From contig JAUWQD010000021.1 in NCBI GenBank assembly GCA_030611265.1, positions 1 to 42,488 on the forward strand: DNA of 42,488 nucleotides, read 5' to 3'. Positions 10,696-34,038 of this stretch are shown one piece after another. Origin of the DNA: Methanosarcinaceae archaeon (GTDB lineage: Archaea; Halobacteriota; Methanosarcinia; Methanosarcinales; Methanosarcinaceae). Positions within the stretch are counted from its first letter, which is position 1, and every line of letters starts with the position of its first letter. A program made the translations under genes and the position numbers. The notes beneath the pieces are model-generated. The model was given only the letters and a program-made list of their open reading frames with translations. It made no database searches and was not told the DNA's origin.

Positions 10696-12882
<2,187 letters not shown>

Positions 12883-13434
12883 CGCACTTTCCGCAGGTAA
12901 ATCCCAAAAGTGAATCTTTTTAATAGTATATATTTTATAAATATATAGTGCAAGTTAATCCGAGCATAGCGAGGATTTTCTTGTCAACTTCACCCATTTC
13001 ATCAGTAAACTCATCTGAGGCGGTGACTACTGCATGAATATAACAACAATATCACTATCTCATTTAGGATTAGTTCGCGGAACGTTTGACGAACTTGGTA
13101 TTGCAGACTTAATAGATGCCAACATGCCAAAAAATCAAAAGCACAATTTACCTCATTCCACAGTAATCAAAGCCATGTGTTTGAATGGTTTGGGATTCAA
13201 CGAAAGCCGACTGTACCTTTATTCTGACTATTTTGAAAACCTTCCAACAGAACGATTATTGGGAGAAGGAATACTATGAAAAACGTTCCATTTGGCAACC
13301 ATATTCTGCACACCGACACAACCAATTTCAGTTTATATGGAAATTACGAGAATCGTGATCCTGAACTCAATACCATTGAGATTACTTATGGCCACCTAAA
13401 GACATGCGATGGGATCTGAAACGTTATGTATTGA
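12883..13434 (+). mobile_element. Decayed copy of the IS1634/IS4-like element
   Basis: It begins with the left terminal inverted repeat cgcactttccgca (12883-12895), carries a 5' leader, and then the start of the transposase. Identity to the copy at the window start is high to about 13272. Then about 97 bp are missing (the equivalent of 121-220 of the first copy is replaced by 3 bases). Weaker similarity continues to about 13434, after which the rest of the element is gone. No right end is visible. Confidence 0.85.
12928..12983 (+). repeat. Tandem hairpin repeat (AT hairpin + GA-loop hairpin), copy 1
   Basis: AT hairpin atatattt-tat-aaatatat (12928-12946), then a second hairpin (12951-12983) with outer pairs caag/cttg, inner stem aatcc/ggatt and loop gagcatagcga. 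Near-identical arrangements occur at 33983-34038 and, on the other strand, at 19415-19470, with paired base changes in the stems. Here it lies in the IS leader region between the left end and the transposase start. Confidence 0.75.
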
Positions 13435-13501: not shown

Positions 13502-13597
13502 CATCACTCCATCGCAAGCCTCACAAGTTCCACCAGATCAATAACATCCGTGTCACTCCCGCCTTCGATCAAATTCTTGGTACAAAGCGGACACGAT
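13502..13597 (-). pseudogene. 96-bp duplicate of the 3' end of the GlcF-like gene
   Basis: Matches 14083-14178 with only two differences in 96 bases. In the minus direction it encodes the last about 31 residues of the iron-sulfur oxidoreductase plus its stop. No start or upstream part is present, so it is not a gene. It lies between the IS remnant and the small membrane-protein gene. Confidence 0.9.
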
Positions 13598-14038: not shown

Positions 14039-14084
14039 TTTTCACCCCATTTAAAAAAAGATGGTAACTTTAAACAATTAATCA

Positions 14085-15143
14085 TCACTCCATCGCAAGC
14101 CTCACAAGTTCCACCAGATCAATAACATCCGTATCACTCCCGCCTTCTATCAAATTCTTGGTACAAAGCGGACACGATGTAATAAGATAATCCACCCCAT
14201 CGGGAACTTCCTCCAGCCTCTTTTTTGCAAGTGCAAGCGAAAGCTCCGGGTACCCTGTGCGAACACCGCCTCCACCGCCACAGCATCGCGCATTCTCGCG
14301 GTTCGTCTTCATCTCCTTAAGATCGCACACAGCCTCGATTACCTTTCGCGGCGCATCGAATACTCCTCTCCATCGTCCAAGATGGCATGCATCATGATAC
14401 GTTACAGTAAGGTCAAGACGCTTAAGTTCCATCTCAGACAGGCGTTCCGCCAAAAACTCAGACACGTGCACCACCTCGAACTCATCAGAATGACTCTCTG
14501 TCAGGGCATTGTGGCACCCTGCACAACTCGTGATGATAGTATGCGCACCCACCTTCCGCATCTGATCTGCATTGTGTGCAATATTCTCATCCACATTAAA
14601 ACCTGTTCTAATAAGAGGTGAACCGCAACACACCTCATCAGGCAGTATAGTAACATCAAAATGACTCAGAACATCAAAAATCGCAATCAATGATTCAGGA
14701 TAACGATATGCTCCAAGGCACCCCACGAAATACACATATTCCGCAGTCTCCTTTATCGATCCCGTATACTTACCAAGCCACGCGCGCCTGTCCGACACAT
14801 CACCAAGCGAATTGCCGGTCCCGTTTATCCTTTCATGGAGTTTCTCCTGCGCCGTGGTCATATTACCATTCATCACAAGCTTGTGACGGGTATTCTCAAT
14901 AACATCAATAGGATCCGCACCTGCCGGACACATCTGTTTGCACATCCCGCACGTCATACAGGTGTTAATACTCTCAAGCACATCATCATCAACATCAAGC
15001 CCCTGCGAGAGACCATGTGCAACAAGCATACGCCCGCGCGCACCGGCCGATTCCCATCCAACCTCCTCCAGAACAGGACAGACCGAGCGGCATGCACCAC
15101 ACCTGACGCATTTTAATATCGACCTGAGATCCGATCCAAGCAT
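14085..15143 (-). CDS. GlcF-like iron-sulfur (CCG-domain) oxidoreductase subunit
   Basis: 352 residues. The N-terminus has two [4Fe-4S] ferredoxin sets, Cys12/15/18/22 and Cys62/65/68/72. Two cysteine-rich CCG domains follow (VCCGSP...CAGCHN and ARCCGGGGG...SCPLC). This is the layout of the electron-transfer subunit of glycolate/lactate oxidases and of heterodisulfide reductase HdrD-type proteins. It starts 3 bp after the stop of the FAD subunit gene, so the two form an operon. It likely takes electrons from the flavoprotein to a membrane or quinone-like carrier (methanophenazine in this group, by inference). The 3' end exists twice (see 13502-13597). Confidence 0.85.
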   Translation of the reverse strand: MLGSDLRSILKCVRCGACRSVCPVLEEVGWESAGARGRMLVAHGLSQGLDVDDDVLESINTCMTCGMCKQMCPAGADPIDVIENTRHKLVMNGNMTTAQEKLHERINGTGNSLGDVSDRRAWLGKYTGSIKETAEYVYFVGCLGAYRYPESLIAIFDVLSHFDVTILPDEVCCGSPLIRTGFNVDENIAHNADQMRKVGAHTIITSCAGCHNALTESHSDEFEVVHVSEFLAERLSEMELKRLDLTVTYHDACHLGRWRGVFDAPRKVIEAVCDLKEMKTNRENARCCGGGGGVRTGYPELSLALAKKRLEEVPDGVDYLITSCPLCTKNLIEGGSDTDVIDLVELVRLAME

Positions 15144-16613: not shown

Positions 16614-18482
16614 ATGACAAGGTATTTTGAAGTACAACAACGCGATGGTGCCGCAAGAATAGGAAAGTTATTACTTGGCACGCAGATACGCACGCCACAT
16701 ATTATCGAGACCAGCCAACTCAAAAAATGGAAAAATGGAAACAATCCGATACTTGATGCAGGTTCGCTCTGGAGTTTAGGATCAAAAGAAAGTGCACAAA
16801 AGCATCTTGATGAGATACGTGCGAAGGTTGGTGGTGATACACTGATCATCCTCCCGCATCAGTCATTCCCACTTGCTGCACCCGATGACGTAGCAGTGAA
16901 GACTGCTGATGCTCTTGATCTTTCAACCGGTGGTGCCATTGGATCTACGTTCCGTGCAGGGCGGCAGGTCATAAAAAGCGACCTGTATGTAATGGAAGGC
17001 GCAGGAAGTCTTGAGAACAATTCAAGGCGTTTCTTCAATACCTTACTGGAACTGAAAAACAGTGTCCCTCCCGATACGGCGGTGTATGCGCCGAACATGT
17101 GCCTGCCCGAAAACGCGGCAATGCTCGTGTACCTCGGAATCGATATTGTAGATGATACGCGCGCGGTGGTTGCCGCATACAGCGACATCTATCTCACAAC
17201 ATCCGGCAGGTTCTATCTCGATTCACTCGCAGAACTTCCATGCAAATGTGAAACATGCGCGCATCTTGATATCAAAGAACTCAGGGATATGGATAAAATT
17301 AAGCGCGCACAGCATCTTGAAAAACATAACAGGAACGTGCTTGAAGCCGAACTCGCACTTGTGAGGGAAAAGATACGTGCAGGCACCCTGCGGGAATATG
17401 TCGAAGGACAATGCAGGACGCGTCCCTGGCTGACAGCGCTTTTGAGAATTGCAGATTCCGAATATGGTTATATCGAGCAGCGCGCACCGATCGTACGCTC
17501 AAACCAGATGATAGCAAATACCGGTGAATCGCAGACGCGCGCAGAAGTTGTGCGGTTTGCAAACCGGATCAATGAAAGATACACCCCGCCTGATGCTGAT
17601 ATATTGCTACTGTTGCCATGCTCTGCAAAGAAACCTTATGGAATTTCAAATTCACACCAGAGATTTATCAGGGCACTTGGGAAGGGACGCAAGTTCGTTC
17701 ACGAGGTCATTATCACATCCCCGCTTGGAATTGTTCCGCGTGAACTTGAACTAACCTATCCTGCCGCGCATTATGATATTGCTGTCACAGGATACTGGGA
17801 TGCAGAGGAAAAAGCATGGGTTAGTGAGTGTCTTGCCAATTATCTCTCAAAGAACAGTTATTCGACCATTGTTGCTCATGTGGAAGGTGCGTATCGTGAT
17901 ATTTGCAAAACTGTGAGCAAGGAACTTGGTATGGAGTTTATTTACACAAGCAGCGGCAATGTGACATCATATGAATCGCTACGGAATTTAAAAGATACTG
18001 TTTTAGAACTTTGCGACGGGCGCAAACGTTCGGCTGAGACCGTAAAAAAAGACATGCTGCGTAAGATCACAGATTACCAGTTCGGACATGGGGCTGGCGA
18101 GATACTGATACCTGAACGTGCGGTCATTAAGGCTCCATTTCCAAAACATCAGGTGTATATTGACAAGACCCATGTCGCAACCCTTGTGCCACAATACGGC
18201 ACACTGGCAATTACAATAGCGGGAGCAGAGATGTTGCTGCCACGTAACAAATATGTGGTTACGATCGAGGATTTCGTGCCAAAGGGCTCGATACTTGCTG
18301 TCGGTGTAACCGGTGCAGACCCTGATATCAGACCAAACGATGAAGTGCTTGTGTCAGGCAGTAAAGCATTCTGTGTCGGGCGCGCGGTGATGAGCGGAAA
18401 AGAGATGGAAGGATCTACACGCGGAATAGCTGTCGACCTGAGGCATGTGAAAAAAATCCTCCATCCGGTCGGATTTACTTAG
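16614..18482 (+). CDS. arcS: Archaeosine synthase (TgtA2/ArcS)
   Basis: 622 residues. The N-terminal part resembles the tRNA-guanine transglycosylase barrel but lacks the catalytic features of TgtA. The middle domain has the ArcS signature LPCSAKKPYGISNSH, and a PUA domain closes the protein (YVVTIEDFVPKGSIL...VGRAVMSGKEM). ArcS acts on preQ0 at position 15 of archaeal tRNA after TgtA has inserted it, adding lysine in the pathway that ends in archaeosine (with the radical SAM partner RaSEA where present). It is cytoplasmic and a single-gene unit here. Confidence 0.9.
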   Translation: MTRYFEVQQRDGAARIGKLLLGTQIRTPHIIETSQLKKWKNGNNPILDAGSLWSLGSKESAQKHLDEIRAKVGGDTLIILPHQSFPLAAPDDVAVKTADALDLSTGGAIGSTFRAGRQVIKSDLYVMEGAGSLENNSRRFFNTLLELKNSVPPDTAVYAPNMCLPENAAMLVYLGIDIVDDTRAVVAAYSDIYLTTSGRFYLDSLAELPCKCETCAHLDIKELRDMDKIKRAQHLEKHNRNVLEAELALVREKIRAGTLREYVEGQCRTRPWLTALLRIADSEYGYIEQRAPIVRSNQMIANTGESQTRAEVVRFANRINERYTPPDADILLLLPCSAKKPYGISNSHQRFIRALGKGRKFVHEVIITSPLGIVPRELELTYPAAHYDIAVTGYWDAEEKAWVSECLANYLSKNSYSTIVAHVEGAYRDICKTVSKELGMEFIYTSSGNVTSYESLRNLKDTVLELCDGRKRSAETVKKDMLRKITDYQFGHGAGEILIPERAVIKAPFPKHQVYIDKTHVATLVPQYGTLAITIAGAEMLLPRNKYVVTIEDFVPKGSILAVGVTGADPDIRPNDEVLVSGSKAFCVGRAVMSGKEMEGSTRGIAVDLRHVKKILHPVGFT

Positions 18483-18529: not shown

Positions 18530-18613
18530 CAACCGCAGCAGAGTTGCCTCTATTTTTATTCTCTGCAGTCCTCTGCGGTTTTTCGAATCGTCTAGAAAAT
18601 AATAAAAAGTCTC
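18530..18613 (-). repeat. 'aaccgcagagg' intergenic repeat, copy A
   Basis: An inverted pair aaccgcag...ctctgcggtt (18532-18576) followed by ataataaaaagtctct. Read on the minus strand, it lines up with 32328-32382 over about 55 bases (gagactttttattat, then ttcg, aaaacc, cagagga, cagagaa). It follows the arcS stop and may also act as a terminator hairpin. Confidence 0.65.
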
Positions 18614-19303: not shown

Positions 19304-19531
19304 AGTCCGACTTCGTCGGACTCCTTGCACAAAGTACAAGGTCTCAGATTTAACGCGAACGAATTGAGTGTTTGCTCGATAATGTATAAAACAAGCCTCT
19401 TGCATAGGCTTAGACAAGAAAATCCTCGCTATGCTCGGATTAACTTGCACTATATGTTTATAAAACATATACTACAAGAAAATCTTCGCTGACGCTCAGA
19501 TTAACTTGGAATACATAATTTTACAAATTAT
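19304..19531. repeat. Cluster of seven short hairpins before dnaG
   Basis: In order: agtccgac-ttc-gtcggact (19304-19322); ccttg...caagg (19323-19341); aacgc/gtgtt with loop gaacgaattga (19352-19372); aagcct...aggctt (19393-19411); caagaaaatcc...ggattaacttg (19415-19447) with AT hairpin atatgtt...aacatat (19452-19470); caagaaaatct...agattaacttg (19474-19508) with AT hairpin ataattt...aaattat (19515-19531). The last two pairs are minus-strand copies of the tandem hairpin element at 12928-12983; between them aatcc/ggatt becomes aatct/agatt. The array ends about 50 bp before the dnaG start. Confidence 0.7.
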
Positions 19532-28634: not shown

Positions 28635-28742
28635 TATGAATATCCCCTTCAGGACGTGTACATATAATTTCAATTTTAATTGTAACTATAATTATACTTA
28701 AAATTGAACTTACAAGTACTTAAAACTATAGAAATTCAGCAG

Positions 28743-31079: not shown

Positions 31080-32198
31080 TCACTCTTCCTTTGCGACTTC
31101 ACGCAATGTTGCGCCAAACTCGGATTCCACAATGTTGTTTACTCCAAGTGTCTTTGGGTGCAGGTCGATCTCAACGATCACGTGATCATGCCCCATTTCC
31201 TTCATAGGCAAGACCTGTCTCGGACCGTTGGTCACTGAAACAATTTCCATTCCCGAGATGCTTTCCATAGGAATTGCATGCGGAACTCCGGTTATAACCA
31301 CGAAATCGTAATCACTGTACTTTTCCTCAATGAGTTTGCCGGCGATGTCACCTGCGATCGGGTACTCATCCATTCCACCGATGATATGATGAATCTTGAT
31401 ACCGCGTTCTTTGAAGTCATCCATGATGCACTTTGCATGATGGCGTACACGTGGAAGCCCAAGTGTGTCATCAATATTTGCCATGTTCACGATATTTGAT
31501 TCAACACCAAGTTGTTTTGCAATCTCATTCACAGCAACCGTGATGTCGGCAAACATGTATCCCGTTTCCTTTTTCGCATTCATGATGGTAATGCCGCGCT
31601 TTCCTTCTTTCAAAAGTTCGATGATACGCTGTGCAACCTTATATTTCACATCGCCGCGTGATGGTGCAAGATATTCCTTACTCGCTGCACCGTGGCGTTT
31701 CTCGACCATGGTTGCTTCCTCAAGCAGAATTTTCTGGCGGTCGAATTCTTTCTCAGTAATAATCCCTGAATCCAGTGCGGATTCGAGTGCGAACAGTACA
31801 CCTTTGGTATTGTTGCGATATCCTGCATGTACTTCCACTTCAATGACAGGCACATCAGGGTTTGCTTCCAGAACGGCATCATGCAGTTCTTCCCCGATAA
31901 TCATGCTTACGCATGTTCCGACGATACCAATGAGTTTCGGGTTGAACATCTCAGTAACTTTTCCCAAAAGCGCAACAAGTTCATCATGTCCGCCAAACAC
32001 GAATCCATTTTCATCAAGAGATGTCGTGACTACGTGTATCCCGTCTTCTTCAAGCAACCTTGCATGTTTGAAAGAACATCCCGGAGGTCCGTGCAGTATC
32101 GCAACATCGACATTCAAGTCACGCAATGTGTAAAGTGCGGCAACAATTGAACTGGGACGTGGGTGTATGATCGAAATCTCTTTTTTATCTTTCTCCAT
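31080..32198 (-). CDS. cfbD: Ni-sirohydrochlorin a,c-diamide reductive cyclase, NifD-like subunit
   Basis: 372 residues, a short homodimeric relative of NifD/NifK and BchN/BchB. It keeps cluster cysteines (GPPGCSFKH and VGTCVSM) and NifD-like stretches such as [12 protein letters not shown] and [12 protein letters not shown]. It binds the nickel tetrapyrrole and is reduced by CfbC. It is separated from cfbE by 362 bp that carry a structured repeat, so cfbD-cfbC-cfbB may form their own transcript. Confidence 0.95.
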
Positions 32199-32560
32199 GT
32201 TATCTCCTCATTTTGGTACGCCGTATTATTTCTTAATTATTATAGTTATGTACATAATTTTTAATTGTCTGGAATGCATGGCAAATAATTAACCGCTGAG
32301 GTCGCAGAGGGCCGCAGAGTTGTTCATGAATTCGAGACTTTTTATTATCTTCTGAAATGGTTCGGAAAACCACAGAGGACACAGAGAAAAATCAACGATT
32401 CTCTGCGACCTGCACGCCCTACGGGCGTAGCAGGCACTCAACTCCGTAGGAGGTGAGTGTCCTCCGCGTTCTCTGCGGTTAATACTTTAATTTATTGTAA
32501 TTTGCATGATATTAGTTAGGTTTGGTTTTTAACTATAATTTGGATAAATCACTTTAATAT
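32199..32560. other. cfbE-cfbD intergenic region carrying a structured repeat
   Basis: No gene seen. The 32290-32482 segment is the 'aaccgcagagg' repeat described separately. The remaining 32199-32289 is AT-rich, as expected of a promoter, with a TATA-like stretch around 32222-32260 in front of cfbD. Confidence 0.6.
32290..32482 (+). repeat. Long 'aaccgcagagg' repeat, copy B, with two strong stem-loops
   Basis: The ends are imperfect inverted repeats (ttaaccgctgaggtcgcagagg at 32291; complement of ttaaccgcagagaacgcggagg at 32461-32482). Inside are cctgcacgccc-tac-gggcgt(a)gcagg (about 32409-32434) and cactcaactcc-gta-ggaggtgagtg (about 32435-32459, ten of eleven pairs). The segment 32328-32382 matches the reverse of 18557-18613. 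It lies inside the F430 cluster, between cfbE and cfbD. Confidence 0.7.
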
Positions 32561-33961
32561 CTACCTGAAACACTTGACACAGGATAATATCAGGTCATTG
32601 CTGTCGGCAATTTCAGATGCAATAGACACCCCTTCTGAAAGTGAATCTGCATAATATGAATTTTTATGTTTGACCGCACGCATTCTCTTACCAACAAGGA
32701 CCAGTTCATCGATGTTTTTACCTTGCTGTCGCAGGAATTCCGATACATCTTCCGGGGGCAATCCTTCACACACCTGTGCGGCTTCTTCTCCAAGTACCAT
32801 GATGATCCTACCTTTTTTCTTAATTTGAAGTGTATTTGCGTATGCAAGTGATCTTTCCACCGATATTATATTCATTCCTGAATTGGAATTATCGATCAAT
32901 GTCTTGCCCTCAAATACCTGCTCGCACATTCTGCCACTAAGACCTTCAAAGTCGGATAATGTATCTCTGATGTCATCGGGTTCGATACCCATCTCAAGTG
33001 CAGCAGTTGCAGCAGCAACCATTGCGGTAGTATATGATCCAACATCATAACCGAGTTGTGCGTTGGCGACAGATATCCAATTACCGGAATTCATGACAAT
33101 CGCATATTTGTCGAGTGTCAGGTTCACATCACCTGGGCAGTTTTTTGAATCGCTAAAGGTGACCTTCTTCACCATGTCACCCAGTGTGCGACATGTCGCT
33201 ACATTGTCTGTGCAGTTTATGACAACGGTACTACCGGGTTTGGCATTGTCAAGCATCTGCATTTTTGCATCACTTGCCCATGCCGTTCCATTTGCAATCT
33301 TGTAGTCCTGTGTGAATGTGGTCAATATGCCGATGTCAGCATATCCCGTGCCGCCAATCGATACTTCAAATATGTATACGTCCGGTGCAATGTTGGGTTT
33401 GGGTTTGGAATTTGCTGATATGTATGATGCAGTCTTGTCCACTGCATGAAGGATACTCCCGGGTGCAATGCTAAGTCCCTGATGTATCAGGGACGGTGTG
33501 CCATTTTCCCAGTATTCGAGTCCGCGGGTTGTGTGGAGTACAACACTCAATTTGCGTGACAGCATGTCAGCAAGAATTGATGCCGTACTTGTTTTTGCTT
33601 TTGTGCCTGTGATCTCGATAATCTTTGCACCTGCAATCGTTTTGTCGTGGGATAGTATCTCGCCAACGATCTTATGATGTGTGACAATTTTTTTACCCAT
33701 GTCACGAGCCTGTTGCAACATCTCATAATTTCGGTCAAGATGCACGGGTGCAACGACTATGTCGAGATCGTCGACAGGGATCGGGTCTTTTGATGTCCTG
33801 ATATCAAAATTGTCCTGCAGGTCAGCAAGAATGGCAGGGTCTACAGTATTATATATGTCAATAGCGCTCACGTTGTAGCCGAGTTGTACCAATTTCTGTG
33901 CAATGATAATCCCGCCGTGTGTCAGGTCAAGCACAGCGGCGTTATTTTGACCTGTAGCCAT
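32561..33961 (-). CDS. cfbE: Coenzyme F430 synthetase (Mur ligase-like)
   Basis: 466 residues; it catalyses the last step, ATP-dependent closure of the carbocyclic ring of 15,17(3)-seco-F430 to F430. The Mur-ligase P-loop appears as ITGTKAKTSTASIL, with a central region VINCTDNVATCRTLG and the C-terminal Mur-like IDNSNSGMN...GKGRIIMVLGEE-type segment. The N-terminus starts at ATG 33961 (MATGQNNAAVLDLTHGG). It is downstream of cfbA and separated from it by a tandem hairpin repeat. Confidence 0.92.
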   Translation of the reverse strand: MATGQNNAAVLDLTHGGIIIAQKLVQLGYNVSAIDIYNTVDPAILADLQDNFDIRTSKDPIPVDDLDIVVAPVHLDRNYEMLQQARDMGKKIVTHHKIVGEILSHDKTIAGAKIIEITGTKAKTSTASILADMLSRKLSVVLHTTRGLEYWENGTPSLIHQGLSIAPGSILHAVDKTASYISANSKPKPNIAPDVYIFEVSIGGTGYADIGILTTFTQDYKIANGTAWASDAKMQMLDNAKPGSTVVINCTDNVATCRTLGDMVKKVTFSDSKNCPGDVNLTLDKYAIVMNSGNWISVANAQLGYDVGSYTTAMVAAATAALEMGIEPDDIRDTLSDFEGLSGRMCEQVFEGKTLIDNSNSGMNIISVERSLAYANTLQIKKKGRIIMVLGEEAAQVCEGLPPEDVSEFLRQQGKNIDELVLVGKRMRAVKHKNSYYADSLSEGVSIASEIADSNDLILSCVKCFR

Positions 33962-33982
33962 GTTCTGTTAATTTGTTTTAGT

Positions 33983-34038
33983 ATATATTTTACAAATATA
34001 TAGTGCAAGTTAATTCGACCGGAAGGAGAATTTTCTCG
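33983..34038 (+). repeat. Tandem hairpin repeat, copy between cfbA and cfbE
   Basis: AT hairpin atatattt-tac-aaatatat (33983-34001), then caagttaattc-gaccggaagga-gaattttctcg (34006-34038). The first 35 bases (33981-34015) differ at one position from the copy at 12926-12960; in the second hairpin the stem is aattc/gaatt instead of aatcc/ggatt, a paired change. It fills most of the 91-bp gap between cfbA and cfbE. Confidence 0.75.

Follow-up and report, generated by a model that had tools for sequence, protein, structure and literature searches.

What is the strongly folded DNA that separates cfbE from cfbD in the F430 cluster of this methanogen, and does it serve the genes next to it? The window (the whole stretch of DNA analysed here, 42,488 nucleotides of contig JAUWQD010000021.1 from a Methanosarcinaceae archaeon) encodes CfbE, CfbD, CfbC, CfbB and CfbA, all named by NCBIfam models. 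A stem-loop segment of 193 bp is present between cfbE and cfbD at 32290-32482, and the preliminary description took it for either a non-autonomous mobile element or a leader RNA of cfbDCB. Our results show the segment to be made of small non-coding mobile repeats nested in one another; it is neither a single element nor a conserved leader. We put at roughly three in four the probability of the complete reading, i.e. that nested mobile repeats occupy the cfbE-cfbD gap, that their arms are gene-less GxxExxY palindromes and that the GxxExxY protein probably spread them.

Position, folding and copies of the segment

The gap ahead of cfbD is the widest of the F430 cluster (362 nt by ORF coordinates). 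The segment has the imperfect inverted ends (TTAACCGC...GCGGTTAA) and the two strong stems described before: stem 1 is made of 11 pairs with one bulged A and stem 2 of 10 out of 11 pairs. Folding of the coding strand gives a z of -7.6 as DNA and -8.1 as RNA, and the RNA of the opposite strand gives -6.8; in each case 0 of 200 shuffles was as stable. Dispersal was borne out as well. The second copy in the window, at 18556-18613 on the minus strand (83% over 58 nt), begins 73 nt past the stop of ORF 16614-18482 and is devoid of the strong stems, as had been claimed. At least 41 further matches to the segment at E < 0.001, some of them adjoining at one place, were found in the genome (2.86 Mb in 108 contigs; 40 of 76 candidates were scored, hence a lower bound). 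Those on C5, C9, C48 and C102 reach contig ends or come within a few bases of them, as repeats that break assemblies do. The 193-bp form, treated before as one unit, has no other full-length copy in this genome search, and the next best match covers 138 of 206 nt. It was the reading of individual genome copies that let us recognise the segment as a composite. Its parts and neighbours are the following.

31080..32198, minus strand: cfbD, downstream neighbour (TIGR03282)
32561..33961, minus strand: cfbE, upstream neighbour (NF033197)
32269..32519, minus strand: layer A plus inserts, a palindromic dispersed repeat with AT-rich ends (by eye against genomes G041 and G029)
32291..32319, plus strand: left arm of A, with the three motifs CGCTGAG, CGCAGAG and CGCAGAG in tandem, 9-10 nt each (from the sequence and alignment to G029 and other A copies)
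32334..32395, minus strand: layer B, one half of a MITE, placed in the loop of A (matches the complete 154-bp B from G041; terminal-repeat pattern)
32401..32407, plus strand: first motif of the right arm of A, CTCTGCG, ahead of unit C (from the sequence; the arm is uninterrupted in G029)
32408..32459, plus strand: unit C, a 52-bp insertion of two hairpins into the right arm of A, with ends placed to within about 1 nt (in-register HMM match; the same arm of G029 is without C)
32409..32434, plus strand: hairpin 1 of unit C, 11 pairs and one bulged A (folds, pair counts)
32435..32459, plus strand: hairpin 2 of unit C, 10 out of 11 pairs with an A.G mismatch inside (folds, pair counts)
32461..32480, plus strand: the other motifs of the right arm of A, past unit C (from the sequence and G029 comparison)
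18556..18613, minus strand: second B half of the window, without A or C (83% over 58 nt)

The window holds other repeats too. A dispersed repeat of 65-69 nt (...AGTGCAAGTTAATYCGA...GAGGATTTTCT) is found at 33972-34036, 12917-12985 and 19413-19481, and one copy stops 10 nt ahead of the cfbE start codon. An AT-rich palindrome after cfbB (28658-28719) resembles at its end the AT-rich sequence that adjoins the insertion near cfbD (families D5 and I3). There is a tandem repeat of a 210-nt unit, three times over, at 2291-2921, probably within a coding region, and a 96-nt direct repeat at 13502-13597 and 14083-14178 (98% identical, 581 nt apart).

The gap within the genus

Layer A is bounded on the coding strand by AAAAACCAAAC and ACAATTAAAAATTATG. 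These ends were set by eye: G041 is without A at this place, and G029 has A alone with an identical left junction. Target duplications, which had been proposed as a sign of mobility, were found for the B family (8 bp) and none was established for the A-type palindromes, so that the ends of the latter are uncertain. The A family was found in six of the seven genomes of the genus.

The cfbE-cfbD gap was recovered in all seven genus genomes compared. Taken as the distance between the last codon matched in CfbE and the first one matched in CfbD, it is 365 nt in the source genome, 272 in G041, 243 in G038, 222 in G029, 97 in G040, 73 in G017 and 72 in G003; the values for G038 and G040 are slightly overstated because the CfbD match begins a few codons in. 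The content of the gap is polymorphic. In the source genome there is A, its loop holding half of B and its right arm unit C; G029 has palindrome A only, G041 has a complete 154-bp B between 8-nt repeats (AAAAATTA), and G038 has a different B-like element. No such repeat is found in the gaps of G017, G003 and G040 (three of seven). The stretch just before cfbD (TACGGCGTACCAAAATGAGGAGATAACATG in the source genome) is retained with few changes whether an insert is present or not. On the cfbD tree G017 and G041 are closer to the source genome than G029 is. As A is common to the source genome and G029 and missing in these nearer relatives, it must have been lost, inserted in parallel or again, or exchanged. 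The idea of a non-autonomous mobile element thus holds with regard to mobility, and what has to be given up is the single 193-bp element: there are three nested repeats, the gap is polymorphic and B carries 8-bp duplications.

Layer B

The layer B family is a MITE. Full copies have imperfect terminal inverted repeats (GAGACTTTTTATTAT...TCTGGA) at both ends; the copy in the cfbE-cfbD gap keeps one end, namely one terminal repeat (GAGACTTTTTATTATCTTCTGA) and half of the CACAGAG core. Among 23 distinct B insertions with both ends present, an exact adjacent 8-nt direct repeat occurs in 10 and a 3-nt repeat in one, with no other length between 3 and 12; if the repeat may lie up to 2 nt away from the ends, 13 of the 23 agree at 7 or 8 of the 8 positions. 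With other MITEs the family shares its terminal inverted repeats, target duplications of 8 bp, length of about 150 bp, lack of coding sequence and many copies. B differs from them in that its ends enclose tandem-motif palindromes of two sequence types and in having no parent IS among the loci inspected. Elsewhere the same terminal repeats enclose a core of a different motif (GCAGATGAACGCAGAT), and since two different cores share them, the B core may be a mere passenger. We looked for the parent IS among the 30 terminal-repeat matches of the genome, inspecting 10 loci over 300 nt, and found none. The only two ends that face each other at about 1 kb (C42:11025/11995) are, by position, more readily accounted for by a nearer end at 11150.

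Unit C, a hairpin unit inside other repeats

The two stems of the preliminary description are two abutting hairpins of a single 52-bp unit. The search gave 103 rows for unit C, of which 64 have a score of at least 40 and both flanks; the other 39 (low score or short flanks) were left out of the target test, and the weakest rows may not be unit C. Of 100 genomes sampled from the family, 18 gave a match to it, among them all seven of the genus, and so did 7 of 392 genomes of the phylum sample, every one within the same order. The match is limited to hairpin 2 and a part of hairpin 1 in some genomes of g3 and g4. Across 57 distinct copies the share of paired cells is 0.937 for hairpin 1 and 0.925 for hairpin 2 (0.27-0.49 in slid controls). 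Both-sided changes number 7 per hairpin; the shuffle maxima are 5 and 6, slid controls reach 8, and this count alone is weak evidence. In the g4 genus stem 1 differs in sequence yet still pairs. It is the paired-cell share and this differing, still-paired stem that carry the argument.

Unit C is located in the spacer between motifs of other palindromes, with CGCAGAG, CACAGAG or CGCAGAT motifs, and with CGCAAAG in another family of the order. It prefers a short target: a TCNGYG-type motif lies to the left of 41 and to the right of 42 of the 64 copies, and on both sides of 28, while 0.055% of random positions have it on both sides. Inner copies of tandem arrays were scored as misses here; the unit is tandem at four loci, e.g. 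four copies at C93 and two at C42. At L137 and L161, in two genera (G041 and G065), it sits in near-identical palindrome surroundings, which suggests that unit C may have been exchanged between genera.

Two hairpins with a bulge or a mismatch, tandem arrays, a short specific target and no long duplication seen are also what a REP/BIME-like element mobilised by an IS200/IS605-type (RAYT) transposase would offer, and unit C shares with such elements its short, imperfect, paired and tandem hairpins. The genome has four Y1 transposase genes above the cut-off. One Y1 match (C53:5655-5810) lies about 180 nt from a repeat at C53:5317-5473 (about 1501-1656 and 1160-1320 of locus L090); however, this neighbour carries B ends and not unit C. 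At the five Y1 loci of the source genome, counting one below the cut-off, there is no nearby unit C beyond chance-level matches of 9-10 nt, and we rejected a Y1 transposase as its neighbour-linked driver. Moreover, REPs are described as having a GTAG or CGTC tag at the stem foot (PMC3733652). The unit C copies inspected have neither, and compared with REP/BIME elements so described, unit C lies inside other repeats and has no linked transposase in the source genome. We consider this origin of unit C unlikely, although it has a real share of the odds. Streptococcus BOX elements (boxA-boxB(n)-boxC) are modular composites. They resemble the repeats of the window in having a hairpin unit of varying copy number within a larger repeat (PMC3049150), and they differ from unit C, which enters several different host repeats and is missing from many copies.

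GxxExxY genes and palindromic arms

The GxxExxY and PDDEXK_3 families (TIGR04256, PF13366) are small proteins with a PD-(D/E)XK nuclease fold. The source genome has three GxxExxY genes. On C90 chains of CGCAGAG motifs stand on both sides of the gene, on C30 the chains on both sides are of ACAGGAT motifs, and on C46 ACACGGAT chains are found on one side only (this repeat has 33 genome matches, query and neighbours counted in). In G041 a GxxExxY gene lies within the loop of a CACAGAG palindrome resembling the B core. Inverted arms of tandem 9-10 nt motifs are thus common to the A and B cores and to GxxExxY loci of the genus (C90, G041). GxxExxY was detected in all seven genus genomes, intact in five and as a broken gene or fragment only in two (G003 and G038); 4 of 8 further genus loci have chains of at least three motifs on both sides. 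The C90 gene occupies the identical genomic place in G029 and in record L226, and with this locus unmoved we see no recent move of the gene-bearing form.

The association extends far beyond the genus. We surveyed the best 80 of 509 confirmed GxxExxY loci in GTDB genomes, with 272 positions in the same contigs as controls. Among these loci a flank inverted-repeat score of at least 20 was obtained for 49 of 78 (median 22) against 7 of 272 controls (median 12). Chains of at least three motifs on both sides were present at 28 of 75 loci and at 0 of 272 controls; the 28 of 75 excludes the three genes of the source genome, with which it becomes 30 of 78. Chains on either side were found at 49 of 75 loci versus 21 of 272 controls. 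The strict two-sided test was failed by 47 of the 75. Short flanks removed 5 of the 80 loci from the chain test, and 2 of the 80 were left out of the inverted-repeat test. The chain pattern was written after the arms had been inspected, allows steps of 8-11 nt only and was applied unchanged to the controls. Around CfbD, a further control with approximate coordinates, two-sided chains were found in 0 of 32 cases. In a test free of any motif pattern, 8.3% of 157 GxxExxY flanks and 0 of 552 control flanks held a strong 9-nt repeat (20 of 27 matches); for a 10-nt repeat the shares were 4.5% and 0.2%. Among eight plasmid hits the inverted-repeat score is at least 20 in four, and both-side chains are present in two. 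In IMG/VR there were 81 GxxExxY pattern matches, none of which was confirmed as a relative. One plasmid record, from Sphingomonas parapaucimobilis, has a GxxExxY gene annotated between fabD and fabG (L353, 1474-1902), an operon position resembling that of the window repeats.

The GxxExxY protein

On a FastTree tree of 83 GxxExxY proteins, 54 of which are labelled, the last letter of the arm motif (G or T) changes 3 times, as against at least 12 times (mean 17.2) in 500 shuffles; 29 proteins are unlabelled, and the tree is built on few columns, with weak support at many of its forks. For host phylum, 30 changes are counted over 49 labelled rows with an assigned phylum. The nearest relative from another phylum has the same last letter in 45 of 54 cases (52% expected). 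The four-letter motif core follows the tree less closely than the last letter does: it changes 26 times, and 200 shuffles gave no fewer than 30 changes.

The catalytic residues D65, E75 and K77 are retained in 82, 82 and 83 of the 83 proteins. A search of solved structures by sequence gave 0 hits. The AlphaFold2 model of L226, the closest relative, has a pLDDT of 96. Foldseek returned no match to it at E 0.001; the best matches are SSO0001 (4ic1), with a probability of 0.99-1.00, LHK-Exo, a Cas4 (4r5q) and lambda exonuclease. In VIA-align, 4ic1, which we take to be a Cas4-type nuclease, scores Z 9.8 (99 aligned, 3.1 A); 3ijm reaches 8.4 and BamHI 7.5, the last in a range that may mean a common arrangement only. 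The predicted fold resembles those of Cas4/RecB-like and BamHI-like nucleases, and a shared fold shows no function.

Origin of the repeats

Since similar arms flank its genes in many distantly related microbes, GxxExxY is a candidate partner of the repeats. The segment between cfbE and cfbD has arms of the same kind as those at many GxxExxY/PDDEXK_3 loci and differs from these loci in being without the gene. A and the B core are most economically read as gene-less relatives of the GxxExxY palindromes. Palindrome A, with its arms of tandem 9-10 nt CGCAGAG motifs, arrived in the gap first; half of MITE B now occupies its loop and the 52-bp unit C one of its arms. In the mechanism that we propose, the GxxExxY protein would recognise the arm motif that belongs to it, at about one motif in each helical turn, and would cut or nick the palindrome or a cruciform formed by it. 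Gene-bearing and gene-less palindromes might thereby be copied to new intergenic sites. B copies would be moved in addition by a putative transposase acting on their terminal repeats, and unit C takes the spacer between motifs as its own target. That GxxExxY binds or cuts the arms and so spreads the repeats is what their co-occurrence and co-variation suggest, and the gene could itself be a passenger.

If it were, the whole nest might be ordinary MITE debris, which a conventional transposase would have spread by way of terminal repeats, with the palindromic cores and the GxxExxY gene carried along. The clean 8-bp duplications of B agree with this, as does the fact that its terminal repeats also carry a different core; the three A-type core matches L129, L136 and L141 also lie inside B-type ends. 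On the other hand, many A-type palindromes (e.g. L057, L127, L038 and L040) are without B terminal repeats, and so is the GxxExxY palindrome of G041. The arm motif, moreover, follows the GxxExxY tree across phyla, which is not predicted for a passenger of unrelated transposases. We regard this explanation as possible and rather improbable, and we favour spread by the GxxExxY protein.

A more general form of the favoured reading we offer only tentatively, giving it clearly less than even odds. It would see here a widespread, unrecognised kind of mobile DNA, in which palindromes of tandem motifs, each roughly one helical turn long, are propagated by a 120-residue nuclease of Cas4/RecB fold, GxxExxY, that co-evolves with its motif, and in which gene-less copies form large families of dispersed repeats, parasitised in the order of this methanogen by a 52-bp hairpin element that inserts into the arms.

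No leader role conserved in the genus

A cis-acting RNA (leader, attenuator or processing site) regulating cfbDCB would suit the very stable RNA fold (z -8.1) and the location in an operon gap, but it is very improbable, with the segment missing in the closest relatives (CfbD of the nearest is 98% identical) and other repeats in its place in others, no Rfam match at the gathering score (0 in the window), and copies elsewhere that are not tied to gene starts. Of 39 such places, classed by a rough ORF call, 13 are tandem, 8 convergent and 7 divergent, 5 lie inside ORFs and 6 at edges. The segment is missing or replaced in five of the six other genus genomes, and the sixth, G029, has A alone; conserved regulation of cfbDCB is excluded on these grounds, and we rejected the leader RNA as a conserved feature. 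A local cis effect on the cfbDCB transcript in this one lineage is possible.

Significance

In the literature searched (by names, family ids and motif strings, partly by title) we found no report of a link between GxxExxY and repeats, and a search by title on archaeal MITEs, archaeal REPs and PDDEXK proteins with palindromes found no such report. The passages in which papers name GxxExxY have no bearing on repeats, and the literature searched gave no established function for the GxxExxY/PDDEXK_3 family. Dispersed repeats of the AACCGCAGAG/ACACGGATT style adjoin GxxExxY genes in many phyla, and we found no paper naming their partner. GxxExxY, a small family of nuclease fold with a phylogeny that tracks the arm motif, offers a concrete and testable candidate. 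The repeats are a likely substrate for the uncharacterised GxxExxY family. Unit C would be unusual as a second-order element with other repeats for its targets. As for the F430 cluster itself, our results call for caution against reading the stable stem-loop before cfbD as a regulator.
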